64,000 nt of DNA from Astrocystis sublimbata (lineage: Eukaryota; Ascomycota; Sordariomycetes; Xylariales; Xylariaceae). Below are positions 37,773-64,000 of the stretch, piece after piece. A program made the translations under genes and the position numbers. Location of the stretch: positions 62,001-126,000 of the forward strand of contig JAJNNY010000080.1 in NCBI GenBank assembly GCA_022453515.1. Reading direction: 5' to 3'. The stretch's first letter is position 1, and each line of letters opens with the position of its first letter. The notes below the pieces were generated by a model that was not told the origin of the DNA, did no database searches, and saw only the letters and a list, made by a program, of their open reading frames with translations.

Positions 37773-38753
37773 GTAGGCTGATCGAGGAGAGGTTAATGTC
37801 GTAAGGGTTCTTTTTGGCAAGTGATAAGCGCTGTGTGTAGAGTGAAGTAGATACACAGGGCGCTAGCGAGGGGCGTGTGAGAGGAGAAGGTGTATGAGGA
37901 ATTTAGATGGAAAGCGAACATTCTTGAGTAGCATCATAGCTAGCAGGTACCTAACCTAAGCGAGTTGATTTCTTAGCAAAGTACCCTAGACAAAATCTAA
38001 TGAGATGCTTGTTTGAACAATTATTGTGCTATGTTGAACCTGGCAAGTTACTAGGAATGTGAAATGCATATAATTTATGAGAGTGTGTACTAATCGTTTC
38101 GCCCTCCGGTCTCGCCTCTGGCCATTCTTTTTGAAAATAAACAGTCGCCCTATCTACTAGATTATAAACGTCTTAACAAGGGTGCTCACTAAGCGGATAT
38201 ATTTATTTTCTGAACGTTCCTAAAGTTTTAATGTATGAATTCCTCCTTCATAAATACCAAAAACCGATCTCCGTAGCCATATGACGTTGACTTTTGATAG
38301 TAGCTTCCCCCCATCACAACTAACCCCATCCCATCCCACCTCAACCCCTTTGTCAAAATTACAGCTACTGCACTAGTCAGCAATACCATTTCAATTCAGA
38401 AGACAAGGCCCTTGTTATACAAAGAAACAGGAGAGAGGACACAAAGACCATGTTTCTACAGTCGATCCTAGATACTAACTCATCAGACAAGGCACAATGC
38501 TTCCTCCTAAATCAATATAAGTTCACTCATAATTACTCACTCAGAACTTTACGATCAGCTTCACGACAGACAACACAGCACCCAAATCCCGGGCGCAGCA
38601 ATTCCCATCACCAGTACCTTGCTCAGAACAGCTAGCTAGTAGGTAGCGTCGTAACGTCCGAACGTGACAGGTTAGGTTAGGTTTGCAGTGTCCCGTCCCA
38701 TCCCATCCCATCCAAACCCTTCCCCTCCCATTCAGCAAGCAAGCAAGCAAGCC
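37773..38753. other. Intergenic region crossing into the left palindrome arm
   Basis: I see no supported gene. From 37,944 the sequence is mirrored at the right end of the window; whether the mirror continues leftward cannot be seen. Short repeats include GCAAGCAAGC and CCCATCCCATCC just before 38754. Confidence 0.55.
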
Positions 38754-39141
38754 ATGCCTTCCCCCCGTCTCCTAATCCTCCAACTCTGCCTCATGCTGCT
38801 AGCAATCTACCTAATCCTCCTCGCGGCGCACGACTCGCTCCTTTCTCCCTTCCCCATCTCCCCCTCCTCCAATTATCTCCATCGCCCTCGAGACCGCCAC
38901 AGACTCCGAGATCCTCGCCCTCTCCGCGCCCTATTTCCCCTCGCTTGTTCTCCCCGGAGAGCCCGACCGGAGTTGGAGTTGGAGTAGTAGTGTCTCCCGC
39001 GAGGACCGCGTGGCCTACGCAAGGCTGTTCTTGCAGAGCCCTGCGCGCTGCGAGTACGATCGGCAAGTCCTGGGCGCCAGCGATGAGCATGTGATAGAGT
39101 GTCTCAAGGGGCTGCAGAGATGGCGGGAGGGTGGAGTTTAG
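38754..39141 (+). pseudogene. Small membrane/secreted protein gene with frame break (left copy)
   Basis: From the ATG at 38754 the frame gives a strong hydrophobic segment (LLILQLCLMLLAIYLILLAA, residues 5-24), a signal anchor or signal peptide. A coherent second frame, shifted by +1, runs from about 38875 to the TAG at 39139. It gives an acidic, well-formed sequence (SIALETATDSEILALSAPYF, then VSREDRVAYARLFLQ and CLKGLQRWREGG). The switch falls in the CT tract 38848-38870 (TCTCCC, CCCC, CCCCC runs), a place prone to slippage or sequencing error. No intron with usable sites joins the two. If the frames belong together the product is about 128 aa. I do not recognise it. The right arm carries exactly the same break at 62803-63190. 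Confidence 0.4.
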
Positions 39142-40029
39142 GTGAGTTGAACTACCTACCTAACCTACCCGGGGTCCAGAACATGGTTAGTTGCTGATCT
39201 GAATGGATTGTTGTTCATATGCATTCAATGTACTCTAGCAAACATTCAAATAATGAACTGTGTAGAAAAAAAAAGAATAATTTTGAAGCTGACAGTCCAA
39301 GGACATCCTGACATTTTCTTTGTTCAAAAGTCGTTCATAGCTTAGTAATGGAGAACTTTAAATTGCCCAAACTCCATATACTACTTATCTCCTTAGCAAC
39401 TCCTTAAGACCCGAGATTACATTTCTCATCACCATTCACACTTAACTCAAAGCTCTTCTAATCAAGTAATCATCACCTATGCCGCAAGCTTTTGAACAAT
39501 CGTTTTCCTTTCTCATTCCCCAATTGAACTGCAATGCTATTTCGCTATTCGCTACTTTCAATGCCCTTCTCGATAATCACATCTATAAATTCAACAACCA
39601 AGCACAAACCGTAGGTATTCTTTCATGACGCCCCTCTTAACATGCCATGACAGTGCTTTTTCGCTTCGTTTCTCCCCTCCTTTTGATAATCCTCAACGCC
39701 GCTACGTGTAAGTAGTAGTCATGCGTAATATGCACCTAGCTACTCAGAAAAAGAAGGGGGTATGAAGAAATAAGCAAGATCCATGCAAACATTATTGATA
39801 ATGCCATACAAATTCCGTACACATCGTTGACTCGTTCAATATTTGATCATGAGACGTCCAGTGAGATCGTCAGTGAGATATTTAGAAGGTCTCCATAGCA
39901 AAAGGATATCACTTGGTCTCTTCCGTTCGAATCGTCGTCTCTATCCGCTTGCAAGATGCATATCCTGTCTCAATGCAGCGAGATCCCAGGCATGAAAATA
40001 TCAAGATGACGGGATGGTTGGTTTCTTTC
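39142..40029. other. Convergent intergenic region
   Basis: This 890 bp stretch lies between the 3' ends of the small gene (+) and the regulator (-). It is AT-rich without a supported gene and repeats at 61915-62802. Confidence 0.55.
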
Positions 40030-43000
40030 TTATACACCGGGACCATTTCCAGGTGGCCCCTGTGGCGCACCGAAGAAGAACCCGTCGAAGAGATCGACCT
40101 GCTGCCCATCGCTGAAGTCATGATGCATGCCCTCCCAGCCGATGCCGAAGCCCATATCCATCTGCATGTCTGGGTTGTTATAGCCATCGCCGCCTGATTG
40201 ATCTTGTATGTTTTGGAGAAAGTCCATGCCCTGCAGATCAGATAAATTGAGGGCGACGGGTCCCGGAGTGAAGTTAGCCGGCGGGGTGCTCATTAGTTGG
40301 AAATTCGAATTGGGACCGCTTTGCGGGGTATACTGTTGGTGCGTGCTCTTCGGTGTCAGGCTGGCTGCGGATCCAGGCGAGTTTACCTGTGAACTTTGCG
40401 AGGGTAGCAGAATGGGATCAATTGCCGAATTATCCGGCATGGTGCCCATGTTTGGCAGATTGCCAAGATTCATATTTGTCTCAGGCATCGGCCGAGGCAT
40501 GGTGTATACATCATGCTCTGATTTGACTTTTGCGGTAGGTATACGATAAGAGGGTGCTTGCGGGATAGGTTGCATAGCTGCCATCTGTGTGATGGGCTTC
40601 CGAGTATATTGCTCATGGGGTGACGCATCATACGCTGTAGCTGGGCGAGAATTAGACTGGTCTCCAGGCGAGTTGGAGTTATATTTCTGGCGATTTGCCG
40701 TCGCTTCTCTCGCGGTTAGATAGTCGATCCTATCGCTGCTTCCTTTTGAACCACGCGTATGCCGGTTCAAGAGATGATTGCCAAATCCACCGTTCGAGTT
40801 GGCCATTTTTATCGTCGCCTTTGCTGTGCGGTCAAATGCATCACGGCATGCTTCTGCAGGGGGACATTTGTCGATAAGGTCAGTAAAGACCGATGTAGCA
40901 GCCAATATAGTAAAGTCAACTTCATCCATAGTCTGTATGCCGGTTAGTCTGTGTCGTTAGCTTTTGCAACAAGCGCACTTACTAGGCGGCTCCGGACAAC
41001 GAGTGAATGCCAGATTGCATAGAGGTACGAAACACCGGCCATGAAGAGGTGATGTGTGGCCAAATACGTATAGTTCACAAGCCCTTGCAAATGTAATTGT
41101 CGGTAGAGGCGCAGGATCTTCTGCCCTGCCTCAGCGACCTTGAGGTAAACTCTCTCCTGGTCCTCTTGGCGCTCCTGGGAGTATATCGATGGACTGTTGA
41201 CTTCTTTGGAGGTATGATATTCGCTCTCGAACATAGCGGGAACACTCAGACTCTGCCGATAAAGCATGATGATAGCTTGCCAGTAGTTCAGCTCCAAAAA
41301 TTCGGGTGAGAAAGCTACTCCCGAATCTTGCTTCGTTGGCGCAGAGTTCTTCCACGCATATAACCGCTCATCGATGTTCTTTCTCCAACTTCGAAACGAC
41401 TCGAACTTGGAGAGGAACGGCGAAGGCAGCTGAGTGTGCATATACTCATTCCGTAAATTTTGGCCGTTGATCCTCGCCGTCTGAGCTTGCTGATATTGCA
41501 AGACCTGAAGAATCTCGGATTGTAGTAACCGGAGTCGTAGGTAATGCTTAGCAACAACTTTGTAAGTAGGCTCACCATCCATAGGAGGGTTGATGATACC
41601 TGCCGGCGTGATATATCGATCTTCAAGCATCGATGGAAACTCTGTCGTGATCACCTGATCAGACACCCCAAATGGTCTTCCGACACAGGTGCTCACAATT
41701 CTGTCGAAAGCGTATGTGCACCACCATAGTCGTCTTCGGAGATCACGAACGTATTCACGCCTACCTCGTTCTCGTAATGCCGCCTCGCGCGATTTGTCGT
41801 TGGCGTCCGGAACACTCGGACCCCCCTTTCGCTCGCCCAGATCGAATTCGACATCTTTCCCGTCTTCGTAGTATAAGCCGAGGTCGACAGCTAATCTTCC
41901 TGCTACACCAACGATGTACCTACGGCGCTTTAGTTCATATACCAGTCTAAGAGCTCAAGTTGACTTACCATAGCCCTGGCGGGACTGGGCGAAGCAGAGC
42001 GAAATTCGCCAATAGGAGAACAGCCTGAAGCTCCTCCAGCCCGCCGCCGTTCAGACAAGCTTCAAGATGGATGATGGCGCTCGCGTGATATTCCTCTGGC
42101 TGAGCCTGCTTCTTCTCCTCTCCCGAAGCTCTTGAGGTGGTTTGGCTGTCCATGATAATGCCGCCACCAATGGCAAACACCATATTTAGTATGTAGAGCT
42201 CCCGGGGGCCTCGTTTACCTTCCTCTGCATAGGCTTGCTCGAACATTTGCATGAAATCTACACGGTGGAGCACTGGGATCTGCGGGTTGGCATATTCGAA
42301 ATATAGATCGACAAGTTTGAGAGCCAAATCTCTGTCGGGAAATACCGCTGGACTGATGGTTGGACGTGTATGCAGACCGAAGAACGAGTCGCGCATCGAT
42401 GTACCCCCTACGCCGTCTCCGTTTCCCGTTAAGGACTTGTAGGGACGTATTCCGGCCTTGTCGGATGTCGACCTATGATCCCCGACGGAGGATTGAACGG
42501 CGGCAAACACAACACGAGCGAAAGAGACACCATTAGCGGAACCAAGATATCTGCCGCGGGTAGTGTTGTTGTCGGTTCGCATGATCTTGTTGGGCCGCGC
42601 GGACTCGTCGTTGCTCGGGAATGTCTGTGGCATACCAGACACCTCGGCAGCTTCGGAGAGCATGGTGAGAGCGCTCTCATTGGGCGACCGGGCATGGCCG
42701 CCATCATTGCCTGGTCTCGAACAGTACTCGAGGTTTTCGGCGGGAGGAAATGGTATGTTCTGGGCGCGGAGGAGGGTCTCCAGCTGGCTGACACGCGTTT
42801 CAAGATAGTAGACATAGCTTGAAGAATCATCAGCTTATGGGAGATACTAATGGGCCAGGCTACTATTGACTACTAACCTGCGAGGTATTTCTCTTTTGGT
42901 TATGGGATCATAGCCAACACAGGCAACCCTTGCCTTCTCACAACTGGCGCAACTGGGTAGCTTCTGGTCGCAGCGATTCTTCCGCAGCCGGCAGCGATTG

Positions 43001-43227
43001 CATGCGCTGACATTGCGAAAGCTACTGCTACTATGAGCATGGCCAGATTTGGCGCTGCCGTGTCCAGTTCCGTCATGCAAATGGTCAGTGGAAGGGGAGA
43101 GCGGACCGACGGAGCCTGAGGTAGGCGAATGCTTCGCGCTTGGTGGGGATGAGGGACGTGGACGTTTCGGAGGATGGGGATGCGGTGACGACGACGACGT
43201 GCCCGGGGATATGACATCCAAATCCAT
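40030..43227 (-). CDS. Zn2Cys6 transcription factor, PPR1/UaY-like (left copy)
   Basis: Four exons, 43227-42878, 42817-41969, 41919-40983 and 40932-40030, give 1012 aa. Introns are 60, 49 and 50 bp. The Gal4-type cluster is Cys76, 79, 86, 93, 96, 103 (C-x2-C-x6-C-x6-C-x2-C-x6-C) within ACNRCRLRKNRCDQKLPSC. The linker PRSYVYYLETRVSQLE, created by splicing intron 1, is followed by a coiled coil. This Cys-cluster/linker pair resembles yeast PPR1 and Aspergillus UaY, the activator of purine use (recollection, not a search). A fungal-specific TF domain spans about 250-700, with YFEYANPQIPVLHRVDF and LWWCTYAFDR..CVGRPFG. The C-terminal ~200 residues are Pro/Gln/Asn/Met-rich with an acidic end, a likely activation region. 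It is nuclear. The gene points away from the palindrome axis and is identical in frame to the right copy. Confidence 0.92.
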
Positions 43228-46055
43228 GGCTGCGAAGTAGATGCAACCAGCACAGACAATTGAGAAGCGCTTGGTCGGCGGCTCGAAGGATAGCGGTCGA
43301 GGCTGGCGAGTGAGTGGTGTGTCAGGGCCACGTCCACCGCGCACTAAGACGCTGTACGGTGCAAGGCGCACTCGTACTCGCACAGCGGGCGTGCACAGGC
43401 TCGCTCGGGAACTGTATGAGAGGAAGCTCTGCACCCCCTAAAGAAGAAGGGCAACTCAATTTTCACTTGTAGAGGTCGGGTGTCGGATTCGTCTGCTCCA
43501 TCTCTGACACGGAATTCCCTGGATGGCCGGCTGTGGTCGAGAGTGTCGCCTATGGTGCGGATAGCAGCTCAATGCTCGATAGCGAAAACAAAGAGACGAG
43601 TGCTAGATCGTGTGTATCCGGCCGTCGCACGGGAGATGTTACGCGGGTGTTCGGGCGCGGCGCGGCGCGATGCGGTGCGGTGCAGTGCGATGTGGCCGTG
43701 GTGGTTGCGGTACTCGTTGGTGCGGGGAGAGGGGAGTACAGGTGCCGAAGGCTGGAATCTGGACTGGACCTGGACTGGACTTGTATGCTGATGAAGAATC
43801 AGTGCCGGTACGCTATTTTCTTATGAGAGACGAGGGCGACAGGCGGTGCAGATGGTGCAGATGGTGCCGAGTGCGCTCTGCTCGAGGCGCTGCAGGTTGG
43901 AAGCAACATAAGCGTATAAGCAGCAGGCATCGGGCAAATGAGCAGCAATCAAACGGGCAAGCAGGCAAGCGGCCAAGATGTCACTGGACTTGAGCTGCCG
44001 TCCCTCTCGTATAAGTGGGCAATGTACACCTACTTGGGCAATGCAGGCGGGAAAGTTGAATCATGTAGGACCGTACTGCTCATCTGTGCAACCGAGACTC
44101 CTCCTTCTCCTGGCCTTACTGCAGTGCAGATGCAGTAGGAGTGGGTAGGTAGGCAATAGCTGGCTAGGCGCACGCCCCTTTTGGGACCCCAAGTAAAATG
44201 GAAATAAAAAAAAGTGAAATAGGGCAGAAAAGGGAGCTGACTGGGAGGTAGAGAGGTAGAGAGGTAGAGGTAGACACAGCCTTCGAGGGTAAGCTCTCCT
44301 TGGGTTGGGTAGCTACTTGTGTTTCAAAGTATGCGCAGCCAGGCAGACGATGCCCGTGACGATGATGATGCTCTCTACCCACGCACATGCGCATGATACA
44401 TGATACCTGCAAGTGGGAGCAGAGGGGAGTGGGACATTGGAGCTTGCTCGTTGCCCGTGGGTGGGTGTATGATTGAAACGGTATCCGAGGACACCCGAAG
44501 AAATGGAGATATACTCACATATACCTGGTAGGTAGGTAGTGTAATTATTAGTATTATAGCTGCTGGGCTGCAATTGTAACGAGTAAGAATACTGGCGGTA
44601 GACCCGGAGGAGTCTGAGGTCCGGCAAACCGAACCTAACCGTATTGCTGCTGTACGTAAGATGCGCAGGTAGAGAGGCGGACGGGACTTGGTTCCAAGGT
44701 TGACAACAAACCGATTTGCCCATTGTTGAGAATGGAGAATGGAGGGTCCAAGTCTGGCTCCAAGCCAGACTCCAAGCGGCCGAGCAGCTTTCCCCAAGGC
44801 CGAGCCAAGCGAGCCAAACTCCCAGCCCGATCCATCAACGGCCTCAAGCTCGCTCAAGGGTAGCGAGCGTAGTGGGCGAGGTGGGGGCACTTTTCGGTGG
44901 GGGACCGCTGGCTCGCGCTGGGGAGGTGCCATCTGATGTACCTAACTTACCTAGTAGATTTCACTGATAAGAGCTCCAGCGAATGACGTGTCACAACCTC
45001 AGGCGCTACGAAGCTCATTTTTGGGCCCAGGCCCCCAGGACCGGGGCGGTATACAATCATACATACAGCGACAGCCACGCTAATCTCAAAGCTCGGTCGA
45101 GCTACCTAAAGCTTGGCCCACGCAGGGGTAGTAGCAGTAGCAACTAGCACTAAAATCCACCACTTCTCACGCATCTCTCTACCTACCTTTTGTATCAGTT
45201 CCAATCATGATATTCCTATTTCGATACCTTCCTGCCTATTGTGATGTGTTTTGAATACAAGACAAATAATCTGATAATAACGAATAATGCTGTTGAAAAG
45301 TAGTTGGATTGAGATGCGAAAGCATTTGGGCCTGGTCTCGCAGGCTTAACAGGCGAGACAGGCCACGCATGACAGGCTAGACAAGGTTCCATGACAGAAA
45401 CAGCAGGATTTGCTTGTGACGCTACTGATAGAAAGATAGAAGAAATGCGTTAGAGGCTATGATCTACACACATGATATCTCGAGGCTGGAAGATGGTTAT
45501 TGATCACACTTTAGCAACGTAGGTGTGCGAATAGTCACAGACTCAAGTAAATACACTTCAAGTACCCTCTCCCGTACCTGAACAGTGTATTGTCTAAACC
45601 TCATAAGCGAGTCTATTATTACTCGGCTCCAGTTACGCGCATGAGTAGGTAGGAAGGTAGGTATCAGGTTGAAAGCAACCTTTCTACCTACTTCATTTTA
45701 GACCTTTTCTCCGTCTCCGCGCAATCAGGCTTCGACTACACAGTATCACCTCGTCATCTTCTTTCGCGTAGGAAACAATGATTGGACTCCAAGGAAGCCT
45801 ACCACCTCTCTCCATTGACACAGCGCCTAGAAACAATGATCCTGTGCGAAGAGGATGTCTTTGTCGAGGAGCAAGTAAGAATAAGATTGTGCCAAAGGCA
45901 CAAGTCTATTGTCGGTGGACAAAGGCCAGAGGATAACTAAGCCAGTATGATGAAGCTACTCACCGGTGTATTTAGGATCAAGATGGAATCGCTACCCTCT
46001 TAGGGTTGACCACGCTCCAGCATCCCATCGAGTTCTTCACATCATATGAGCAAAG
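43228..46055. other. Divergent intergenic region, 2.8 kb
   Basis: This region lies between the regulator (-) and the zinc-ribbon gene (+). Frames up to 185 codons occur (for example 44375-44932, -) but are Ser/Pro-rich, overlap other frames and lack domains. GGTAGGTAGGT-type microrepeats are frequent. It repeats at 55889-58716. Confidence 0.5.
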
Positions 46056-47715
46056 ATGCCTTTCACTCCTATTAACAAGACGCGATGTCGACCGAGTACC
46101 CACGGCATGTCAACTCGCTCACGCGTTCAAGATGATAGACCCGAGACCGAGGACGAGCCCATGGAAAGCACTGAACAACAGCAACTTGCATCATCAGAAA
46201 GCTGCACAGATGTATATATAGCAGCTGCATTTCACGTACGATCGGACATTGCAACCCCGACGACCTCGAACGAACAGTGCTCAGTGTGTGGCTCATTCCC
46301 CGCCTTTATGTCGAGGGAAGGAACTACTTGTATTTGGTGCTCGACTGAATCTCAGCGAGGGCACAAGCCGCAAAGCGAAATTGAAAAGAAGCTAGAATAT
46401 GACCGTCTTGGGCTGTGCGCCTATTGTGGTTTAACTGCCGACAACGATGACATGTGCTCGGCCTGTCGTCTCAGACAGAAGGCCAGAGTCATGGAGATAA
46501 GAAGAAAACGCAATGCCGAATGTATTAAGCAGAGCCTTTGCATAACTTGTAGAATTGCCATCGTTCAGCTTGGCTTTCTCCAGTGTACGGAATGTAGGGC
46601 GAAAAAGGCTGCTGAAAAAAACGAGTCGCGAACTCGAACGCCGACAACATCAGATGGTAAATGCTCAGAGTGTGGTGGCCGCCCTACCTGGCTGTCAAAA
46701 GAAGGACTTTGTCTTTGGTGCACAAGTCCTTCCAAGGCAATCTGTCACAGGTCACAAGAGCGAACCGAAAAGGCAGTTGACTATAACCGTCGCGGGCTGT
46801 GCCACTTTTGTGGTGAGACTACCGATAACAACAAGACTCATATGTGTTCGACCTGTCGTCGCAGGAAATATGATAGGTCAACAGAGGGTCGAAGGAGACA
46901 TTTCGCCGAACATGCCAAACATAATCGTTGCAGATATTGCGGGCTTGCTCCATCCCTACCGGAAAAGGTGTATTGCGCCAAATGCCGCCAGAAAACCCGT
47001 GCTCGTGAAAACAGGGACCGCGAGAGAAGGCGAGAGAAGGCGAAAGAAGACCCAAGAAACCAACATTTGTATCCTTTGTCAGCGGTTTCCCGCCGCACCC
47101 TCTACCCTGAAATGCACAGGATGCAGGGAGAAAGCACATATCCACTACAAACGGTGGCAGGCCAAAAATCAAGAAGAAAGGAAAGAATATGATCACACCT
47201 TCTATGCTGAGAATAGAGAAACTACCTTGGCGAAAACGGCTAGAACTAGAAGGTCCCCAGCCAAAGAGCAAAAGAAGCAACGAGCGACCATAGAAGCACA
47301 CGGAGACGACGCCGATATGATCGACACAACTTCTCAAGATCCACAAACGTCAACAGCATCGCCAGAGTCAGATCAGGTGTTGGCAGCGCAACGTAACGAA
47401 TCTGACATTGAGGAACAAGAAGACGACACCGAGATGATGGATATTGCTCAAGATATGCGAGCGTTATCTGTATCGCCAGAGCCAGAGCAGATGATGGCGC
47501 CGCAACGTTCTCAGGTAGACATTGAGGCGTCCTTGCAGCTTATAGCTATGTCTACCCTAGGAGAACAGCAACACGATACTGAGATTGTCGATTCGGTATC
47601 TCAAGGTACACAGACAATGACTTCGTTACCGGAGCAGACGACGGCAACGCAAGATGATGAAGCTGACACTGGGCCACCTTTGCGACGCATAACAATATCT
47701 GATTTACTGAACTGA
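46056..47715 (+). pseudogene. Zinc-ribbon array protein gene broken by 10 bp duplication (left copy)
   Basis: From the ATG at 46056 the frame encodes six CxxC-x(9-17)-CxxC modules: residues 75-95, 121-137, 162-180, 203-222, 249-267 and 292-310. Residues ~66-185 and ~195-313 are a tandem duplication of a three-module unit: each starts TPTTS, then a CxxCG module, a spacer with DRLGL or NRRGL, and a second and third module ending CR.KxR. At the tandem CGAGAGAAGG pair (47021-47040) the reading must shift. The other frame then gives a seventh module (CILC...CTGC, 47068-47124), a basic segment and three degenerate ~37-residue acidic repeats (DDADMID, DDTEMMD, HDTEIVD) to the stop at 47715. Left as is, the protein ends after 378 aa with 65 unrelated residues. 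Zinc ribbons of this kind bind nucleic acid or protein; the function is unknown and I recognise no named family. Confidence 0.7.
47021..47040. repeat. 10 bp tandem duplication causing a frame shift (left copy)
   Basis: Two exact CGAGAGAAGG units are followed by a diverged third (CGAAAGAAGA). The extra 10 bp moves the zinc-ribbon reading frame by one base; counting shows that a single unit would leave the upstream and downstream frames in register. Confidence 0.85.
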
Positions 47716-48558
47716 ACTGTGAGTCACAGGAAAACAAGCTAACGCTACTGCTCTAGGCCAACTTCCTTTTTCGAGGATGCAGTAAATCGCCAGTTGGCAT
47801 CCTGGCTAACCCAAAAATATGATATTTTCATTTGTTCATTGAAAAGTTGTCGGTGGGAAGTATTAGTTACATGGATAGGTAGTTATCGGTTGTTAGTATT
47901 CAAGATTGTAGTTGCGAAGCAAGTCAGATTTTTTAATACCGATATGTCAACTTGAAAAAGCATTTTGCTGTCCTTATTAAGTTACTATTTGCGCAGTGTG
48001 TAGGTATCACGAGGAAATTGTCTGACTTGGGATTAATATTTCCAGCAAAACAAAGACCCTCTGTCAGGGTATGCTGAGATCGACGCTTGGTCTATAGTAT
48101 GTGGGCTAAGTAATATATCCATCTGAATATTTGAACAATAACTCATGTTTCAATCCTATCATCGTTGTGCTTACATTGGAAGTTAACCCAGAACGCAGAA
48201 GTCAGAAGCGTGGTTCAAAGAACCCGTCATAGCGATGATTTCATAGCATATCATCCTGCAGCACACTTCCTTCCGCCCTCCGCCCTCACACTACTTCGCT
48301 CCTCCCTTCCCCTGCGCCTTTCAACTTGACCGAACTTACCTTCTCAGCAACAGGTCAATCATACCCAGAACACGCTCAGCTAAGATGCCAGATACGAAGG
48401 CGTTCATATCTCGCAAGCCATAACACCATCCTGGACATCCATACATCCATACACCCATCATGCATTTTACCCACCACATCACATATCACCCCCCTCACCC
48501 GGAGCCTCACCCTCATCCCCCACCCCCTACCCACCACGAACCTAACACAACCCCAGCA
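47716..48558. other. Intergenic region
   Basis: This 840 bp stretch lies between two plus-strand genes. I see no supported gene; it repeats at 53386-54228. Confidence 0.55.
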
Positions 48559-50034: not shown

Positions 50035-50329
50035 ATGGATGCTCGCATGGGTAATTACAAAGTAGATGATAGCCAGAGAGAGCCCTTCATGATAGGTCAT
50101 TGATTGATTACCTTAGGTACCTTAGTCTAGTAACCAGCATTAGCATCCTAGAATTCAGGTATTGTTTAATCTGCATGCCATAAATCATCACATCTCGTGG
50201 TTTTCTTCTTGTTCTTTTGCTTCTTTTTCTTCCTACCCATTCAGGCCAAGCATTCACTATATCGCATACATTCGAAATAAGACCTTACACGGCGGCAAGG
50301 TCTGCCTCTCGAGGTGCCATACAAAATAG
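50035..50329. other. Spacer between last gene and transposon relic
   Basis: This stretch is non-coding and of normal composition. It ends where the strongly AT-rich core starts. Confidence 0.5.
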
Positions 50330-50447
50330 ATAAGATACTTATAGGTTTTTATAGGTTGTTTATAAAATAGTTATATTATAATTAAGGAATAATAGTATAA
50401 CGTCATCCACAAGTCAGTGTCGCACCCAAGTCACAACAACAACGAAG

Positions 50448-51241: not shown

Positions 51242-51496
51242 TATAAAATAAAAAACAAGTAACTAATATATAAAGGACCTCTTACTATAAAGGATTCTTA
51301 AGTTTTATAAGAATTAAAAAGCGATAAGGATATTAAATCGGTAGTCTAAAGTGAAAATAGTTATCCTATAAAGAGGGCTTGTGGCGGTCCGCAACGTTGT
51401 GGCATATGCAGCAATACCGGGTATAATGCGCGAACATGTTAAATAGAAGTAGAAACCTCTAAAGAAGACGATTCTGATTGATTTGAACTATTTTAA
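51242..51496 (+). pseudogene. pogo/Fot1-type transposase C-terminus, RIPed (right copy)
   Basis: One frame reads through six internal stops: TAA at 51260, 51299, 51308, 51347 and 51440, and TGA at 51479. It ends at TAA 51494. Between them lies ACGGPQRCGICSNTGYNARTC (TGT at 51398 to TGT at 51437), a CCHC-like zinc knuckle with Tyr where His is normal, then an acidic ETSKEDDSD tail. Fungal pogo/Fot1 DDE transposases end in just such a CxxCGxxGHNARTC knuckle plus acidic tail (family knowledge). Each TAA is one C-to-T change from CAA, and Tyr for His is also one C-to-T change, as RIP produces. The catalytic DDE part is missing because the frame runs into the palindrome axis. Confidence 0.72.
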
Positions 51497-51614
51497 CTTC
51501 GTTGTTGTTGTGACTTGGGTGCGACACTGACTTGTGGATGACGTTATACTATTATTCCTTAATTATAATATAACTATTTTATAAACAACCTATAAAAACC
51601 TATAAGTATCTTAT

Positions 51615-51909
51615 CTATTTTGTATGGCACCTCGAGAGGCAGACCTTGCCGCCGTGTAAGGTCTTATTTCGAATGTATGCGATATAGTGAATGCTTGGCC
51701 TGAATGGGTAGGAAGAAAAAGAAGCAAAAGAACAAGAAGAAAACCACGAGATGTGATGATTTATGGCATGCAGATTAAACAATACCTGAATTCTAGGATG
51801 CTAATGCTGGTTACTAGACTAAGGTACCTAAGGTAATCAATCAATGACCTATCATGAAGGGCTCTCTCTGGCTATCATCTACTTTGTAATTACCCATGCG
51901 AGCATCCAT
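51615..51909. other. Spacer (mirror of 50035-50329)
   Basis: Non-coding, same content as the left copy. Confidence 0.5.
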
Positions 51910-53385
51910 TCATACATAGAGACGATAGTCATCTGCGTCGATGATGCGCATAGGTGGAGGTGGAGGGTCCCGGAAAGGGTTCTGGGCGTCATTGGGAGGA
52001 GACTCGAGATTACTCGTCATGCCCTTCTTCCTCTTTTGCTTCTTCTTCATTTCCTTCTTCGCCCGCTTTTGCTGCCGCTTCTCTTCCTCCTCCTCCTCTC
52101 CCTTTTGCTTCTTGTCTTTGCGCCCCGCTCTGTCTTCTTCTTTTGATTTTCGCAATCTGATGTTGATGTGTCTGGGCTTGGGGCTGGGGTCGCGGAAGGG
52201 GTTTGTCGGTTTCGTGGGCGCGTGCTTGTGCTTCGACAAAGCCCTGCGCTTCCTTATCTCGACGGGGAAAAGCCTTGATCGCTTCTTGCCTTTCAGTTTG
52301 GGAATGTTGTTGTTTCTGCTGGATGGAGCGGCCGTGCTCGTCTCGGCGGGAGCAGAATGCGATCGTTGGTCTGGGTCTGGGTCTACATCGGGGTCCGTCG
52401 GCTGATTGGCGTCTGCGTCTGGCTCGCTGTAGACACTGCTGCTGAAGTCGATCAGGACCCCTTCCCTGGCGCCTTCTTCCTCAGGCTCCAGCTGTTCGGG
52501 ACGTGTTTGCGTGTTTGCATTTGTGTTTTCGTGGAACTGGACATGTAGGCTTGCGGGCGTTGGGGCGGGAGCGCGTGGTTGATGCTCCTCTTGCGTAATA
52601 TGGCTCGATGGGGGAGAAGCAGAAGCAGAAACAGGAACAGGTTCTCTCGTGGCTCTTCTTTTGTCTTTGCTTTGCTTCTTGCTCTGCTTCTTGGCTTCCT
52701 TGGCTCGCTGTCGGGTTCTTTTGCGGTATTCCTGTTGTCACACACATTCAGATAAATGATGAGAGATCGTTCGTAGCTCCGAATGACGACTAGCTCGACT
52801 AATTTGACTGCTGTGGACGATGGATTGATTTGATTTCTACTTACAGAGACAGCATCCGATATGTCGTGCGCGATGAGATAATTATACGGCTCCCCGCGGA
52901 ACCGGAGGCGTAGAGCGAGATATCGCCGCTGGGAATGGAGGTCGCGGCCTTTCCAGTAGAACCCGTCGAGGGCCGTCTGCAGAAAAGAGACGTCAGTCAG
53001 TCAGGCATTGAGTCACCCACCAATGAGAACATCTCTGTGTCATAGATGTGTTAGTCCATCGACTTACCGCCGGATCCGGATGACACCGCCGATGAAACAC
53101 CTTCAACACCCACGTGCGCACCTCCTCGACGCCCGCCTCCTTCGGCGGCGTGCTCTCGACCAGCTCGTCCTACGAGTCGTCCAGGTACTGCTGGTGTTGG
53201 GCCGAGTACTTGGGCTTGTGGACGGTAGAGCGCGCTTTTGTCTTGAGGTGTGGACTGTGCGACGAGTGGGAGAAGCCCGTCGTGTGTGTGTGGTTGGGGC
53301 TGCCGCAGTCGGGGCTTGGTGGGCTCAGCGTCCAGACGTTGGGGATGAGGCCGGTGTATTGATGTTTGTTGTTGTGGGGAGGCAT
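51910..53385 (-). pseudogene. Lys-rich hypothetical protein gene with in-frame TAG (right copy)
   Basis: Exons 53385-53068, 52976-52845 and 52731-51910 mirror the left copy exactly, including both introns. The same nonsense codon is at 53172-53170. Because the two copies share the stop, it either predates the duplication or both arms come from one consensus. Confidence 0.6.
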
Positions 53386-54228
53386 TGCTGGGGTTGTGTT
53401 AGGTTCGTGGTGGGTAGGGGGTGGGGGATGAGGGTGAGGCTCCGGGTGAGGGGGGTGATATGTGATGTGGTGGGTAAAATGCATGATGGGTGTATGGATG
53501 TATGGATGTCCAGGATGGTGTTATGGCTTGCGAGATATGAACGCCTTCGTATCTGGCATCTTAGCTGAGCGTGTTCTGGGTATGATTGACCTGTTGCTGA
53601 GAAGGTAAGTTCGGTCAAGTTGAAAGGCGCAGGGGAAGGGAGGAGCGAAGTAGTGTGAGGGCGGAGGGCGGAAGGAAGTGTGCTGCAGGATGATATGCTA
53701 TGAAATCATCGCTATGACGGGTTCTTTGAACCACGCTTCTGACTTCTGCGTTCTGGGTTAACTTCCAATGTAAGCACAACGATGATAGGATTGAAACATG
53801 AGTTATTGTTCAAATATTCAGATGGATATATTACTTAGCCCACATACTATAGACCAAGCGTCGATCTCAGCATACCCTGACAGAGGGTCTTTGTTTTGCT
53901 GGAAATATTAATCCCAAGTCAGACAATTTCCTCGTGATACCTACACACTGCGCAAATAGTAACTTAATAAGGACAGCAAAATGCTTTTTCAAGTTGACAT
54001 ATCGGTATTAAAAAATCTGACTTGCTTCGCAACTACAATCTTGAATACTAACAACCGATAACTACCTATCCATGTAACTAATACTTCCCACCGACAACTT
54101 TTCAATGAACAAATGAAAATATCATATTTTTGGGTTAGCCAGGATGCCAACTGGCGATTTACTGCATCCTCGAAAAAGGAAGTTGGCCTAGAGCAGTAGC
54201 GTTAGCTTGTTTTCCTGTGACTCACAGT
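53386..54228. other. Intergenic region (mirror of 47716-48558)
   Basis: No supported gene. Confidence 0.55.
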
Positions 54229-55888
54229 TCAGTTCAGTAAATCAGATATTGTTATGCGTCGCAAAGGTGGCCCAGTGTCAGCTTCATCATCTTGCGTTGC
54301 CGTCGTCTGCTCCGGTAACGAAGTCATTGTCTGTGTACCTTGAGATACCGAATCGACAATCTCAGTATCGTGTTGCTGTTCTCCTAGGGTAGACATAGCT
54401 ATAAGCTGCAAGGACGCCTCAATGTCTACCTGAGAACGTTGCGGCGCCATCATCTGCTCTGGCTCTGGCGATACAGATAACGCTCGCATATCTTGAGCAA
54501 TATCCATCATCTCGGTGTCGTCTTCTTGTTCCTCAATGTCAGATTCGTTACGTTGCGCTGCCAACACCTGATCTGACTCTGGCGATGCTGTTGACGTTTG
54601 TGGATCTTGAGAAGTTGTGTCGATCATATCGGCGTCGTCTCCGTGTGCTTCTATGGTCGCTCGTTGCTTCTTTTGCTCTTTGGCTGGGGACCTTCTAGTT
54701 CTAGCCGTTTTCGCCAAGGTAGTTTCTCTATTCTCAGCATAGAAGGTGTGATCATATTCTTTCCTTTCTTCTTGATTTTTGGCCTGCCACCGTTTGTAGT
54801 GGATATGTGCTTTCTCCCTGCATCCTGTGCATTTCAGGGTAGAGGGTGCGGCGGGAAACCGCTGACAAAGGATACAAATGTTGGTTTCTTGGGTCTTCTT
54901 TCGCCTTCTCTCGCCTTCTCTCGCGGTCCCTGTTTTCACGAGCACGGGTTTTCTGGCGGCATTTGGCGCAATACACCTTTTCCGGTAGGGATGGAGCAAG
55001 CCCGCAATATCTGCAACGATTATGTTTGGCATGTTCGGCGAAATGTCTCCTTCGACCCTCTGTTGACCTATCATATTTCCTGCGACGACAGGTCGAACAC
55101 ATATGAGTCTTGTTGTTATCGGTAGTCTCACCACAAAAGTGGCACAGCCCGCGACGGTTATAGTCAACTGCCTTTTCGGTTCGCTCTTGTGACCTGTGAC
55201 AGATTGCCTTGGAAGGACTTGTGCACCAAAGACAAAGTCCTTCTTTTGACAGCCAGGTAGGGCGGCCACCACACTCTGAGCATTTACCATCTGATGTTGT
55301 CGGCGTTCGAGTTCGCGACTCGTTTTTTTCAGCAGCCTTTTTCGCCCTACATTCCGTACACTGGAGAAAGCCAAGCTGAACGATGGCAATTCTACAAGTT
55401 ATGCAAAGGCTCTGCTTAATACATTCGGCATTGCGTTTTCTTCTTATCTCCATGACTCTGGCCTTCTGTCTGAGACGACAGGCCGAGCACATGTCATCGT
55501 TGTCGGCAGTTAAACCACAATAGGCGCACAGCCCAAGACGGTCATATTCTAGCTTCTTTTCAATTTCGCTTTGCGGCTTGTGCCCTCGCTGAGATTCAGT
55601 CGAGCACCAAATACAAGTAGTTCCTTCCCTCGACATAAAGGCGGGGAATGAGCCACACACTGAGCACTGTTCGTTCGAGGTCGTCGGGGTTGCAATGTCC
55701 GATCGTACGTGAAATGCAGCTGCTATATATACATCTGTGCAGCTTTCTGATGATGCAAGTTGCTGTTGTTCAGTGCTTTCCATGGGCTCGTCCTCGGTCT
55801 CGGGTCTATCATCTTGAACGCGTGAGCGAGTTGACATGCCGTGGGTACTCGGTCGACATCGCGTCTTGTTAATAGGAGTGAAAGGCAT
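54229..55888 (-). pseudogene. Zinc-ribbon array protein gene broken by 10 bp duplication (right copy)
   Basis: This is the mirror of 46056-47715 with the same 3+3+1 module layout, the same 10 bp tandem pair (54904-54923) and the same two reading frames. The ATG is at 55888 and the final stop at 54229-54231. No base difference from the left copy was seen. Confidence 0.7.
54904..54923. repeat. 10 bp tandem duplication causing a frame shift (right copy)
   Basis: Two CCTTCTCTCG units, the mirror of 47021-47040. Confidence 0.85.
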
Positions 55889-58716
55889 CTTTGCTCATAT
55901 GATGTGAAGAACTCGATGGGATGCTGGAGCGTGGTCAACCCTAAGAGGGTAGCGATTCCATCTTGATCCTAAATACACCGGTGAGTAGCTTCATCATACT
56001 GGCTTAGTTATCCTCTGGCCTTTGTCCACCGACAATAGACTTGTGCCTTTGGCACAATCTTATTCTTACTTGCTCCTCGACAAAGACATCCTCTTCGCAC
56101 AGGATCATTGTTTCTAGGCGCTGTGTCAATGGAGAGAGGTGGTAGGCTTCCTTGGAGTCCAATCATTGTTTCCTACGCGAAAGAAGATGACGAGGTGATA
56201 CTGTGTAGTCGAAGCCTGATTGCGCGGAGACGGAGAAAAGGTCTAAAATGAAGTAGGTAGAAAGGTTGCTTTCAACCTGATACCTACCTTCCTACCTACT
56301 CATGCGCGTAACTGGAGCCGAGTAATAATAGACTCGCTTATGAGGTTTAGACAATACACTGTTCAGGTACGGGAGAGGGTACTTGAAGTGTATTTACTTG
56401 AGTCTGTGACTATTCGCACACCTACGTTGCTAAAGTGTGATCAATAACCATCTTCCAGCCTCGAGATATCATGTGTGTAGATCATAGCCTCTAACGCATT
56501 TCTTCTATCTTTCTATCAGTAGCGTCACAAGCAAATCCTGCTGTTTCTGTCATGGAACCTTGTCTAGCCTGTCATGCGTGGCCTGTCTCGCCTGTTAAGC
56601 CTGCGAGACCAGGCCCAAATGCTTTCGCATCTCAATCCAACTACTTTTCAACAGCATTATTCGTTATTATCAGATTATTTGTCTTGTATTCAAAACACAT
56701 CACAATAGGCAGGAAGGTATCGAAATAGGAATATCATGATTGGAACTGATACAAAAGGTAGGTAGAGAGATGCGTGAGAAGTGGTGGATTTTAGTGCTAG
56801 TTGCTACTGCTACTACCCCTGCGTGGGCCAAGCTTTAGGTAGCTCGACCGAGCTTTGAGATTAGCGTGGCTGTCGCTGTATGTATGATTGTATACCGCCC
56901 CGGTCCTGGGGGCCTGGGCCCAAAAATGAGCTTCGTAGCGCCTGAGGTTGTGACACGTCATTCGCTGGAGCTCTTATCAGTGAAATCTACTAGGTAAGTT
57001 AGGTACATCAGATGGCACCTCCCCAGCGCGAGCCAGCGGTCCCCCACCGAAAAGTGCCCCCACCTCGCCCACTACGCTCGCTACCCTTGAGCGAGCTTGA
57101 GGCCGTTGATGGATCGGGCTGGGAGTTTGGCTCGCTTGGCTCGGCCTTGGGGAAAGCTGCTCGGCCGCTTGGAGTCTGGCTTGGAGCCAGACTTGGACCC
57201 TCCATTCTCCATTCTCAACAATGGGCAAATCGGTTTGTTGTCAACCTTGGAACCAAGTCCCGTCCGCCTCTCTACCTGCGCATCTTACGTACAGCAGCAA
57301 TACGGTTAGGTTCGGTTTGCCGGACCTCAGACTCCTCCGGGTCTACCGCCAGTATTCTTACTCGTTACAATTGCAGCCCAGCAGCTATAATACTAATAAT
57401 TACACTACCTACCTACCAGGTATATGTGAGTATATCTCCATTTCTTCGGGTGTCCTCGGATACCGTTTCAATCATACACCCACCCACGGGCAACGAGCAA
57501 GCTCCAATGTCCCACTCCCCTCTGCTCCCACTTGCAGGTATCATGTATCATGCGCATGTGCGTGGGTAGAGAGCATCATCATCGTCACGGGCATCGTCTG
57601 CCTGGCTGCGCATACTTTGAAACACAAGTAGCTACCCAACCCAAGGAGAGCTTACCCTCGAAGGCTGTGTCTACCTCTACCTCTCTACCTCTCTACCTCC
57701 CAGTCAGCTCCCTTTTCTGCCCTATTTCACTTTTTTTTATTTCCATTTTACTTGGGGTCCCAAAAGGGGCGTGCGCCTAGCCAGCTATTGCCTACCTACC
57801 CACTCCTACTGCATCTGCACTGCAGTAAGGCCAGGAGAAGGAGGAGTCTCGGTTGCACAGATGAGCAGTACGGTCCTACATGATTCAACTTTCCCGCCTG
57901 CATTGCCCAAGTAGGTGTACATTGCCCACTTATACGAGAGGGACGGCAGCTCAAGTCCAGTGACATCTTGGCCGCTTGCCTGCTTGCCCGTTTGATTGCT
58001 GCTCATTTGCCCGATGCCTGCTGCTTATACGCTTATGTTGCTTCCAACCTGCAGCGCCTCGAGCAGAGCGCACTCGGCACCATCTGCACCATCTGCACCG
58101 CCTGTCGCCCTCGTCTCTCATAAGAAAATAGCGTACCGGCACTGATTCTTCATCAGCATACAAGTCCAGTCCAGGTCCAGTCCAGATTCCAGCCTTCGGC
58201 ACCTGTACTCCCCTCTCCCCGCACCAACGAGTACCGCAACCACCACGGCCACATCGCACTGCACCGCACCGCATCGCGCCGCGCCGCGCCCGAACACCCG
58301 CGTAACATCTCCCGTGCGACGGCCGGATACACACGATCTAGCACTCGTCTCTTTGTTTTCGCTATCGAGCATTGAGCTGCTATCCGCACCATAGGCGACA
58401 CTCTCGACCACAGCCGGCCATCCAGGGAATTCCGTGTCAGAGATGGAGCAGACGAATCCGACACCCGACCTCTACAAGTGAAAATTGAGTTGCCCTTCTT
58501 CTTTAGGGGGTGCAGAGCTTCCTCTCATACAGTTCCCGAGCGAGCCTGTGCACGCCCGCTGTGCGAGTACGAGTGCGCCTTGCACCGTACAGCGTCTTAG
58601 TGCGCGGTGGACGTGGCCCTGACACACCACTCACTCGCCAGCCTCGACCGCTATCCTTCGAGCCGCCGACCAAGCGCTTCTCAATTGTCTGTGCTGGTTG
58701 CATCTACTTCGCAGCC
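55889..58716. other. Divergent intergenic region (mirror of 43228-46055)
   Basis: Presumed promoters of the zinc-ribbon gene (-) and regulator (+). No supported gene. Confidence 0.5.
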
Positions 58717-61700
58717 ATGGATTTGGATGTCATATCCCCGGGCACGTCGTCGTCGTCACCGCATCCCCATCCTCCGAAACGTCCACGTCCCTCATCCCCA
58801 CCAAGCGCGAAGCATTCGCCTACCTCAGGCTCCGTCGGTCCGCTCTCCCCTTCCACTGACCATTTGCATGACGGAACTGGACACGGCAGCGCCAAATCTG
58901 GCCATGCTCATAGTAGCAGTAGCTTTCGCAATGTCAGCGCATGCAATCGCTGCCGGCTGCGGAAGAATCGCTGCGACCAGAAGCTACCCAGTTGCGCCAG
59001 TTGTGAGAAGGCAAGGGTTGCCTGTGTTGGCTATGATCCCATAACCAAAAGAGAAATACCTCGCAGGTTAGTAGTCAATAGTAGCCTGGCCCATTAGTAT
59101 CTCCCATAAGCTGATGATTCTTCAAGCTATGTCTACTATCTTGAAACGCGTGTCAGCCAGCTGGAGACCCTCCTCCGCGCCCAGAACATACCATTTCCTC
59201 CCGCCGAAAACCTCGAGTACTGTTCGAGACCAGGCAATGATGGCGGCCATGCCCGGTCGCCCAATGAGAGCGCTCTCACCATGCTCTCCGAAGCTGCCGA
59301 GGTGTCTGGTATGCCACAGACATTCCCGAGCAACGACGAGTCCGCGCGGCCCAACAAGATCATGCGAACCGACAACAACACTACCCGCGGCAGATATCTT
59401 GGTTCCGCTAATGGTGTCTCTTTCGCTCGTGTTGTGTTTGCCGCCGTTCAATCCTCCGTCGGGGATCATAGGTCGACATCCGACAAGGCCGGAATACGTC
59501 CCTACAAGTCCTTAACGGGAAACGGAGACGGCGTAGGGGGTACATCGATGCGCGACTCGTTCTTCGGTCTGCATACACGTCCAACCATCAGTCCAGCGGT
59601 ATTTCCCGACAGAGATTTGGCTCTCAAACTTGTCGATCTATATTTCGAATATGCCAACCCGCAGATCCCAGTGCTCCACCGTGTAGATTTCATGCAAATG
59701 TTCGAGCAAGCCTATGCAGAGGAAGGTAAACGAGGCCCCCGGGAGCTCTACATACTAAATATGGTGTTTGCCATTGGTGGCGGCATTATCATGGACAGCC
59801 AAACCACCTCAAGAGCTTCGGGAGAGGAGAAGAAGCAGGCTCAGCCAGAGGAATATCACGCGAGCGCCATCATCCATCTTGAAGCTTGTCTGAACGGCGG
59901 CGGGCTGGAGGAGCTTCAGGCTGTTCTCCTATTGGCGAATTTCGCTCTGCTTCGCCCAGTCCCGCCAGGGCTATGGTAAGTCAACTTGAGCTCTTAGACT
60001 GGTATATGAACTAAAGCGCCGTAGGTACATCGTTGGTGTAGCAGGAAGATTAGCTGTCGACCTCGGCTTATACTACGAAGACGGGAAAGATGTCGAATTC
60101 GATCTGGGCGAGCGAAAGGGGGGTCCGAGTGTTCCGGACGCCAACGACAAATCGCGCGAGGCGGCATTACGAGAACGAGGTAGGCGTGAATACGTTCGTG
60201 ATCTCCGAAGACGACTATGGTGGTGCACATACGCTTTCGACAGAATTGTGAGCACCTGTGTCGGAAGACCATTTGGGGTGTCTGATCAGGTGATCACGAC
60301 AGAGTTTCCATCGATGCTTGAAGATCGATATATCACGCCGGCAGGTATCATCAACCCTCCTATGGATGGTGAGCCTACTTACAAAGTTGTTGCTAAGCAT
60401 TACCTACGACTCCGGTTACTACAATCCGAGATTCTTCAGGTCTTGCAATATCAGCAAGCTCAGACGGCGAGGATCAACGGCCAAAATTTACGGAATGAGT
60501 ATATGCACACTCAGCTGCCTTCGCCGTTCCTCTCCAAGTTCGAGTCGTTTCGAAGTTGGAGAAAGAACATCGATGAGCGGTTATATGCGTGGAAGAACTC
60601 TGCGCCAACGAAGCAAGATTCGGGAGTAGCTTTCTCACCCGAATTTTTGGAGCTGAACTACTGGCAAGCTATCATCATGCTTTATCGGCAGAGTCTGAGT
60701 GTTCCCGCTATGTTCGAGAGCGAATATCATACCTCCAAAGAAGTCAACAGTCCATCGATATACTCCCAGGAGCGCCAAGAGGACCAGGAGAGAGTTTACC
60801 TCAAGGTCGCTGAGGCAGGGCAGAAGATCCTGCGCCTCTACCGACAATTACATTTGCAAGGGCTTGTGAACTATACGTATTTGGCCACACATCACCTCTT
60901 CATGGCCGGTGTTTCGTACCTCTATGCAATCTGGCATTCACTCGTTGTCCGGAGCCGCCTAGTAAGTGCGCTTGTTGCAAAAGCTAACGACACAGACTAA
61001 CCGGCATACAGACTATGGATGAAGTTGACTTTACTATATTGGCTGCTACATCGGTCTTTACTGACCTTATCGACAAATGTCCCCCTGCAGAAGCATGCCG
61101 TGATGCATTTGACCGCACAGCAAAGGCGACGATAAAAATGGCCAACTCGAACGGTGGATTTGGCAATCATCTCTTGAACCGGCATACGCGTGGTTCAAAA
61201 GGAAGCAGCGATAGGATCGACTATCTAACCGCGAGAGAAGCGACGGCAAATCGCCAGAAATATAACTCCAACTCGCCTGGAGACCAGTCTAATTCTCGCC
61301 CAGCTACAGCGTATGATGCGTCACCCCATGAGCAATATACTCGGAAGCCCATCACACAGATGGCAGCTATGCAACCTATCCCGCAAGCACCCTCTTATCG
61401 TATACCTACCGCAAAAGTCAAATCAGAGCATGATGTATACACCATGCCTCGGCCGATGCCTGAGACAAATATGAATCTTGGCAATCTGCCAAACATGGGC
61501 ACCATGCCGGATAATTCGGCAATTGATCCCATTCTGCTACCCTCGCAAAGTTCACAGGTAAACTCGCCTGGATCCGCAGCCAGCCTGACACCGAAGAGCA
61601 CGCACCAACAGTATACCCCGCAAAGCGGTCCCAATTCGAATTTCCAACTAATGAGCACCCCGCCGGCTAACTTCACTCCGGGACCCGTCGCCCTCAATTT

Positions 61701-61914
61701 ATCTGATCTGCAGGGCATGGACTTTCTCCAAAACATACAAGATCAATCAGGCGGCGATGGCTATAACAACCCAGACATGCAGATGGATATGGGCTTCGGC
61801 ATCGGCTGGGAGGGCATGCATCATGACTTCAGCGATGGGCAGCAGGTCGATCTCTTCGACGGGTTCTTCTTCGGTGCGCCACAGGGGCCACCTGGAAATG
61901 GTCCCGGTGTATAA
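58717..61914 (+). CDS. Zn2Cys6 transcription factor, PPR1/UaY-like (right copy)
   Basis: Exons 58717-59066, 59127-59975, 60025-60961 and 61012-61914 give 1012 aa. Donors are GTTAGT, GTAAGT and GTAAGT; acceptors are AAG, TAG and CAG; a GACTAAC branch site lies in intron 3. Domain layout and residue numbers are those of the left copy: Zn2Cys6 at 76-103, coiled coil to ~132, fungal TF domain ~250-700, Pro/Gln/Asn-rich acidic tail. I took the ATG at 58717 (GCAGCCATGG context) although the frame is open from 58510, because the earlier part is Arg/Pro-rich leader. The gene is intact in both arms, which shows that the arms have not been RIPed. Confidence 0.92.
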
Positions 61915-62802
61915 GAAAGAAACCAACCATCCCGTCATCTTGATATTTTCATGCCTGGGATCTCGCTGCATTGAGACAGGATATGCATCTTGCAAGCGGA
62001 TAGAGACGACGATTCGAACGGAAGAGACCAAGTGATATCCTTTTGCTATGGAGACCTTCTAAATATCTCACTGACGATCTCACTGGACGTCTCATGATCA
62101 AATATTGAACGAGTCAACGATGTGTACGGAATTTGTATGGCATTATCAATAATGTTTGCATGGATCTTGCTTATTTCTTCATACCCCCTTCTTTTTCTGA
62201 GTAGCTAGGTGCATATTACGCATGACTACTACTTACACGTAGCGGCGTTGAGGATTATCAAAAGGAGGGGAGAAACGAAGCGAAAAAGCACTGTCATGGC
62301 ATGTTAAGAGGGGCGTCATGAAAGAATACCTACGGTTTGTGCTTGGTTGTTGAATTTATAGATGTGATTATCGAGAAGGGCATTGAAAGTAGCGAATAGC
62401 GAAATAGCATTGCAGTTCAATTGGGGAATGAGAAAGGAAAACGATTGTTCAAAAGCTTGCGGCATAGGTGATGATTACTTGATTAGAAGAGCTTTGAGTT
62501 AAGTGTGAATGGTGATGAGAAATGTAATCTCGGGTCTTAAGGAGTTGCTAAGGAGATAAGTAGTATATGGAGTTTGGGCAATTTAAAGTTCTCCATTACT
62601 AAGCTATGAACGACTTTTGAACAAAGAAAATGTCAGGATGTCCTTGGACTGTCAGCTTCAAAATTATTCTTTTTTTTTCTACACAGTTCATTATTTGAAT
62701 GTTTGCTAGAGTACATTGAATGCATATGAACAACAATCCATTCAGATCAGCAACTAACCATGTTCTGGACCCCGGGTAGGTTAGGTAGGTAGTTCAACTC
62801 AC
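61915..62802. other. Convergent intergenic region (mirror of 39142-40029)
   Basis: No supported gene. Confidence 0.55.
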
Positions 62803-63190
62803 CTAAACTCCACCCTCCCGCCATCTCTGCAGCCCCTTGAGACACTCTATCACATGCTCATCGCTGGCGCCCAGGACTTGCCGATCGTACTCGCAGCGCG
62901 CAGGGCTCTGCAAGAACAGCCTTGCGTAGGCCACGCGGTCCTCGCGGGAGACACTACTACTCCAACTCCAACTCCGGTCGGGCTCTCCGGGGAGAACAAG
63001 CGAGGGGAAATAGGGCGCGGAGAGGGCGAGGATCTCGGAGTCTGTGGCGGTCTCGAGGGCGATGGAGATAATTGGAGGAGGGGGAGATGGGGAAGGGAGA
63101 AAGGAGCGAGTCGTGCGCCGCGAGGAGGATTAGGTAGATTGCTAGCAGCATGAGGCAGAGTTGGAGGATTAGGAGACGGGGGGAAGGCAT
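62803..63190 (-). pseudogene. Small membrane/secreted protein gene with frame break (right copy)
   Basis: This is the mirror of 38754-39141. The ATG is at 63190, a hydrophobic N-terminus follows, the frame changes in the GA tract around 63074-63096 and the stop is at 62803-62805. It has the same uncertainty as the left copy. Confidence 0.4.
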
Positions 63191-64000
63191 GGCTTGCTTG
63201 CTTGCTTGCTGAATGGGAGGGGAAGGGTTTGGATGGGATGGGATGGGACGGGACACTGCAAACCTAACCTAACCTGTCACGTTCGGACGTTACGACGCTA
63301 CCTACTAGCTAGCTGTTCTGAGCAAGGTACTGGTGATGGGAATTGCTGCGCCCGGGATTTGGGTGCTGTGTTGTCTGTCGTGAAGCTGATCGTAAAGTTC
63401 TGAGTGAGTAATTATGAGTGAACTTATATTGATTTAGGAGGAAGCATTGTGCCTTGTCTGATGAGTTAGTATCTAGGATCGACTGTAGAAACATGGTCTT
63501 TGTGTCCTCTCTCCTGTTTCTTTGTATAACAAGGGCCTTGTCTTCTGAATTGAAATGGTATTGCTGACTAGTGCAGTAGCTGTAATTTTGACAAAGGGGT
63601 TGAGGTGGGATGGGATGGGGTTAGTTGTGATGGGGGGAAGCTACTATCAAAAGTCAACGTCATATGGCTACGGAGATCGGTTTTTGGTATTTATGAAGGA
63701 GGAATTCATACATTAAAACTTTAGGAACGTTCAGAAAATAAATATATCCGCTTAGTGAGCACCCTTGTTAAGACGTTTATAATCTAGTAGATAGGGCGAC
63801 TGTTTATTTTCAAAAAGAATGGCCAGAGGCGAGACCGGAGGGCGAAACGATTAGTACACACTCTCATAAATTATATGCATTTCACATTCCTAGTAACTTG
63901 CCAGGTTCAACATAGCACAATAATTGTTCAAACAAGCATCTCATTAGATTTTGTCTAGGGTACTTTGCTAAGAAATCAACTCGCTTAGGTTAGGTACCTG
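63191..64000. other. Outer part of right arm, no supported gene
   Basis: This is the mirror of 37944-38753. It contains GCTTGCTTGC and GGGATGGGAT short repeats. The next mirrored gene, if the palindrome continues, would be the small membrane protein at 37485-37772 on the minus strand just beyond the window. Confidence 0.55.

Follow-up and report, generated by a model that had tools for sequence, protein, structure and literature searches.

The palindrome at the end of contig C169 of the Astrocystis sublimbata assembly is almost certainly not a real genomic feature, but the product of AT-rich DNA that was folded back in sequencing or assembly. We estimate at about 95% the probability that it is a fold-back artefact stemming from molecules or reads and built into the contig end. 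We favour this reading because many other contigs end in the same mirror structure, and the evidence for it includes 1) a mirror that is terminal; 2) its recurrence in the assembly; 3) the AT-rich composition of the axes; 4) one locus that is also present unfolded; and 5) one locus with two different fold points. Several observations count against it: the junction of C169 is clean, without errors of the kind found in contig C7, and real fold-back repair would be expected to leave a similar junction; the continuation of C169 was not found; the fold point of contig C48 is not AT-rich; and the predicted folding at the axis is ordinary.

An inverted duplication that ends with the contig

The stretch of DNA analysed here (the window, 64,000 bp, C169:62,001-126,000) belongs to an assembly of 42.6 Mb in 189 contigs. 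A mirror comparison of the whole contig places the palindrome, which is present in the deposited sequence, at C169:94,857-131,087, with arms of 18.1 kb that differ at 2 of 18,098 positions when the spacer is left aside (Table 1). A match of such length is far beyond chance. An initial annotation of the window had proposed that every position x mirrors 101,944-x over 13,011 bp around a 35-bp spacer. The rule is valid for x in 37,944-50,954 but for a single TG/GT pair; of the 8 differing positions overall, the other 6 lie inside the spacer. The left-arm start that the annotation gave, 37,944, was wrong: that position merely mirrors the final base of the window, and the arm in fact begins at 32,857 (C169:94,857). 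The right arm continues for 5,087 bp past the end of the window and reaches the last base of the contig (131,087). There is thus no unique DNA past the far arm. Comparing C169 with itself in words of 28 bases revealed no repeat other than the palindrome, and neither strand of the contig carries a TTAGGG or TTTAGGG doublet. The left arm is most likely the true copy and the right arm is most likely spurious.

Table 1. Features of the palindrome. Positions are those of the window unless a contig or locus is named.
Feature	Position	Strand	Basis or remark
Left arm	32,857..50,954 (C169:94,857-112,954)	+	Mirror comparison; continuous with 94.9 kb to its left
Spacer, 35 bp, A/T-rich, axis at 50,972	50,955..50,989	.	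Mirror comparison
Right arm, reverse complement of the left arm	50,990..64,000, on to C169:131,087	-	Mirror comparison
Sole arm difference outside the spacer	50,741-50,742		TG, against GT when 51,202-51,203 is read in mirror
Near half of the 1.7-1.9 kb inverted-repeat DNA transposon, RIP-mutated	50,398..50,985	+	Copies elsewhere run on, C169 turns back
Mirror copy of the transposon near half	50,990..51,546	-	Mirror comparison
Transposon copies	L003:182-2047; L007 (C143):89-1773; L008:144-2077		
Zn2Cys6 transcription factor gene	40,030..43,227	-	Exon limits approximate
Mirror copy of the Zn2Cys6 gene	58,717..61,914	+	Mirror comparison
Open frame, 378 aa	46,056..47,192	+	Mirrored at 54,752-55,888

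It is highly improbable that this is a real chromosomal palindrome, in which a break in the transposon was followed by fold-back repair or sister-chromatid fusion that gave the strain sequenced here a second copy of the 18-kb arm. The near-perfect symmetry, a spacer this short and the weak inverted repeat native to the axis would fit fold-back repair, but no DNA follows the far arm, the same structure stands at many other contig ends, and, as described below, C143 contradicts C7 and C48 contradicts C2. The 21 sequenced spacers of true fold-back duplications in people given in PMC3907307 measure 766-70,466 bp, against 35 bp here. These duplications and C169 are alike in having inverted copies about a single-copy spacer. 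The former show short inverted homology where the spacer begins or ends; for C169, the native transposon copies have at this point a weak inverted repeat, seen by eye, and fold no better than usual. Unlike the inverted copies described in that source, which end in a telomere or a translocation, C169 simply stops. A fold-back formed in vivo should show a spacer of hundreds of base pairs or more and continue to a telomere or a translocated segment, and C169 shows neither. It does have traits of an artefact, namely the absence of new sequence after the mirror and the recurrence of the structure elsewhere in the assembly, at loci that have no relation to it. The arms show no sign of RIP (index -0.43, against -0.46 in the rest of the contig), which also speaks against a chromosomal palindrome, though a recent mitotic event could escape RIP, as could any very recent duplication.

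The axis lies in a RIP-mutated transposon

The axis of C169 sits within an AT-rich, RIP-mutated copy of an inverted-repeat transposon. A genome search with the sequence left of the axis, which comprises flank and element, placed related repeats at some 40 places at least, with 40 of the 63 candidates scored; counting also a search with the far half of the element, the family has several dozen matched places. In the three copies that were fetched (L003, L007 and L008), the element is 1.7-1.9 kb long and has inverted terminal repeats matching over ~34-73 bases. RIP has mutated it strongly, with a TpA/ApT ratio of about 1.4 and composite indices of 0.83 to 0.90, and one fragment of it tried against Pfam gave no match. 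Judged by eye, it may be a Tc1/mariner-pogo (Fot1-like) element that inserts at TA.

Six copies, three of them at the C7/C143 locus and hence four loci in all, align with C169 through its axis to ~50,985 and then enter the other half of the element. The spacer of C169 is native transposon sequence up to this same point. The native copies have, as judged by eye, a weak inverted repeat at the axis, and their predicted folding there is not unusual (z of -0.37, -0.84, -1.65 and -1.49 at the four loci), so that we claim no special hairpin at the axis of C169.

Palindromes recur at contig ends across the assembly

At least 14 contigs of the assembly, C169 among them, end in palindromes, with arms of 3.4-19.4 kb (14.6-19.4 kb in 8 of the 14). 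Five of these contigs (C169, C7, C38, C45 and C111) were discovered through the transposon, and the family they share is therefore a matter of ascertainment and not evidence. The palindrome of C7 occupies 43,921-76,071 of its 76,071 bp, and its arms are identical outside a central region (59,549-60,443). There, 55 single bases are missing from the left half and 12 in the opposite sense, and 9 bases are substituted. The palindromes of C38 and C45 span 1-6,777 of 29,240 bp and 1-17,475 of 25,765 bp, respectively. The palindrome of C111, with its axis at ~470,795, mirrors 501 of 501 bases where it was compared at one place, and the final 99 bases of the contig are mirrored too.

In a sample of contig ends chosen irrespective of the transposon, at least 8 of 34 ends carried a palindrome, with both ends of C9 ambiguous in addition. 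The sample comprises C1-C21 by number without C7, which was already known, and hence mostly small contigs that are not a random draw. Of 20 contig starts fetched, 19 were kept (C13 was dropped for low complexity) and all 38 candidates were scored: the first 60 bases of C2 and of C20 recurred in inverted orientation on their own contigs, C9 was ambiguous, and C48 surfaced as a second contig holding the start of C2. Twenty contig ends were likewise fetched and 15 kept, after C2, C5, C10, C15 and C21 were dropped as AT-rich, transposon-like or telomeric. Their last ~60 bases had an inverted partner for at least C1, C11, C12, C13, C14 and C16, with C9 again ambiguous; this count is a lower bound because 40 of the 63 candidates were scored. 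The predicted axes of C1, C2, C13, C14, C16, C11, C12 and C20 were fetched and all eight are palindromic. When five of them were compared with the transposon (the axes of C11, C12 and C20 being left out), C1 and C16 gave short weak matches, and C13, C14 and C2 gave none.

Some minor observations were made on the sampled ends. Both ends of C9 are repeated on C9 in both orientations and have further copies on C60 and C62, which are perhaps several fold-backs of one multicopy sequence; C9 was not counted. Ordinary telomeres do occur in the assembly, as C15 ends in TTAGGG repeats (L055, C15:57,778-58,027). The sampled end of C1 recurs at 100% identity on C56 (22,256-22,315) and the start of C5 recurs on C153 (183,942-184,002), matches that hint at further redundant or overlapping contigs. 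By eye, the start of C13 (L033, C13:1-250) contains a short A/T-rich inverted repeat.

The axes share a base composition. All 12 measured in 200-bp windows have 6-36% GC, when only 0.2% of 1,894 windows of C169:1-94,856 have 36% or less, a comparison that is confounded by the tendency of contigs to end in AT-rich repeats anyway. The axis of C111 lies outside these 12, and the fold point of C48 has 42% GC over 301 bases. Arm length depends on the side of the contig: it is 3.4-8.7 kb at contig starts (n=5) and 4.9-19.4 kb at contig ends (n=9; exact p=0.004, or p=0.011 without C48). We would expect such a dependence to be produced by the assembly rather than by biology. How often palindromes occur does not differ clearly between starts (2 of 19) and ends (at least 6 of 15; p=0.10).

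Loci that are unfolded or folded differently

The locus of C7 is represented twice. The first 88 bases of C143 (L007) are flanking sequence shared with the two arms of C7 only (L004, L005 and L018-L021). C143 then matches the right arm of C7 over ~1.17 kb with one single-base gap, diverges where C7 turns, and continues to the far terminal repeat of the element at C143:1,773 and into further sequence. As C143 runs through the whole element, the ordinary form of the palindromic locus is in the assembly, and C7 and C143 probably lie next to each other on the same chromosome. A second locus is folded in two ways: C48 duplicates the start of C2, with 300 of 300 flank bases found at these two places only, and the spacer of the fold is 234 bp in C48 and 29 bp in C2. 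Two fold points at one locus are impossible for one haploid chromosome, though two nuclei or two molecules could hold them. Together, the two loci indicate that such palindromes are not a fixed structure of the chromosomes.

The coexistence of folded and ordinary forms (C7/C143) and the differing fold points (C2/C48) might also be expected if a minority of palindromic molecules existed in the living culture, arising repeatedly at AT-rich islands in different nuclei beside ordinary chromosomes. We find this hardly credible, given that arm length follows the start or end of the contig, which biology cannot know, that the arms are of the order of read lengths, and that a library artefact explains both patterns without new biology. 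It is very unlikely, too, that the palindromes reflect a real and ongoing process in which chromosomes in culture break repeatedly at AT-rich, RIP-mutated islands, fold back and are copied, giving genuine palindromic ends as long as 19 kb at points differing slightly between nuclei.

These loci also bear on the two branches of the initial annotation. The branch that invoked a fold-back read or assembly error, with half of the right side nonexistent, is borne out by the end of C169 within its far arm, the 14 contigs alike, the continuation of C7 by C143, and the different folds of C2 and C48. For the other branch (sister-chromatid fusion, fold-back template switching in vivo, or terminal amplification), we found no support.

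An ordinary continuation of C169 itself was not found when the genome was searched with the flank and the transposon (40 of 63 candidates scored), nor with the far half of a native copy (40 of 74 scored); both searches returned many copies of the transposon. C38 and C45, which carry far halves, were considered as partners of C169 and rejected, since they are terminal palindromes themselves.

How the fold-back may have formed

We propose that a long DNA molecule or read ran rightward along the left arm, entered the transposon copy with its AT-rich sequence and turned back on itself at ~50,972, so that its own complement was then copied or read. In assembly, the fold-back would have been built into the end of C169, and the contig would stop where the fold-back stopped. 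The fold itself could be a snap-back during library preparation, in which a single-stranded 3' end pairs with a nearby A/T-rich complement and is extended. The near-identity of the arms would be explained if both were the consensus of the same reads. We infer the shared origin of C169 and the other palindromes, the physical snap-back, the consensus step, and the choice of snap-back over missed adapters and amplification chimeras.

Fold-backs of this type are known in reads. In the nanopore genomic data described in PMC12870357, they make up 0.55-0.6% of reads and are attributed to library preparation; virtually none occur in the few PacBio HiFi data considered there, a point against our reading should the present assembly rest on such reads. 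Like C169, those reads consist of two reverse-complementary halves separated by a short spacer, but they were seen as reads and ours in assembled contigs. When inverted duplicates pass through a nanopore, bases are missed after the junction, according to PMC7229812. The one-base deletions of C7 resemble this effect, a likeness that is only suggestive. PMC6218980 describes palindromic reads after whole-genome amplification, and a rate of 0.5% in an unamplified PacBio control that it attributes to false positives and missed adapters. In that study, as here, false inverted duplications enter assemblies, and there they were removed by splitting the palindromic reads; unlike here, where the 12 measured axes are AT-rich, no GC bias of palindromes is reported there.

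The artefact could therefore be of another kind, and it is possible, if doubtful, that amplification chimeras or missed PacBio adapters, and not AT-rich snap-back, lie behind these contig ends. Both are described in PMC6218980 as sources of palindromic long reads, and the arms of 14.6-19.4 kb found in 8 of the 14 contigs resemble insert or read lengths. Yet missed adapters would be expected to place their folds wherever molecules happen to end, and 12 of 12 measured axes are AT-rich; moreover, the spacer of C169 is native to ~50,985, as a loop would be. Nothing here indicates amplified DNA. Our literature search recognised, by title, no paper on this Astrocystis sublimbata genome, although two papers mention the species, and it gave nothing of use on similar assembly artefacts in fungi.

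Consequences for the assembly and for the genes of the arms

In this public assembly, the inverted duplications at the ends of at least 14 contigs are probably false, and those found amount to ~334 kb of palindromic sequence (with the single locus of C2 and C48 counted twice). Close to its contig ends, the number of genes, their duplications and synteny are thus untrustworthy. Other assemblies can be checked with a simple test, in which the last bases of each contig are sought in reverse orientation up to some 40 kb inward.

In C169, the effect is the doubling of the genes of the left arm, whose right-hand copies are probably nonexistent. The initial annotation counted four genes per arm. One is clear, a regulator of the Zn2Cys6 type, whose spliced product is 100% identical to a protein of Astrocystis sublimbata (Xylariaceae) and some of whose named relatives bear the name "positive regulator of purine utilization"; beside it, the arm holds several long open frames, mostly without Pfam match, as candidate genes. 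A search of the assembly with the stretch that carries the regulator gene gave 2 candidates, both scored, and these are the two arms of C169. The second copy of the gene is therefore most likely spurious. Pfam returned no match for the open frames submitted from 33-37 kb and from 49-50 kb, nor for one of four pieces of the regulator. The 378-aa frame, for which a protein search gave no relative but itself, is cysteine-rich with repeated cysteine pairs, as seen by eye, and possibly represents an orphan gene.
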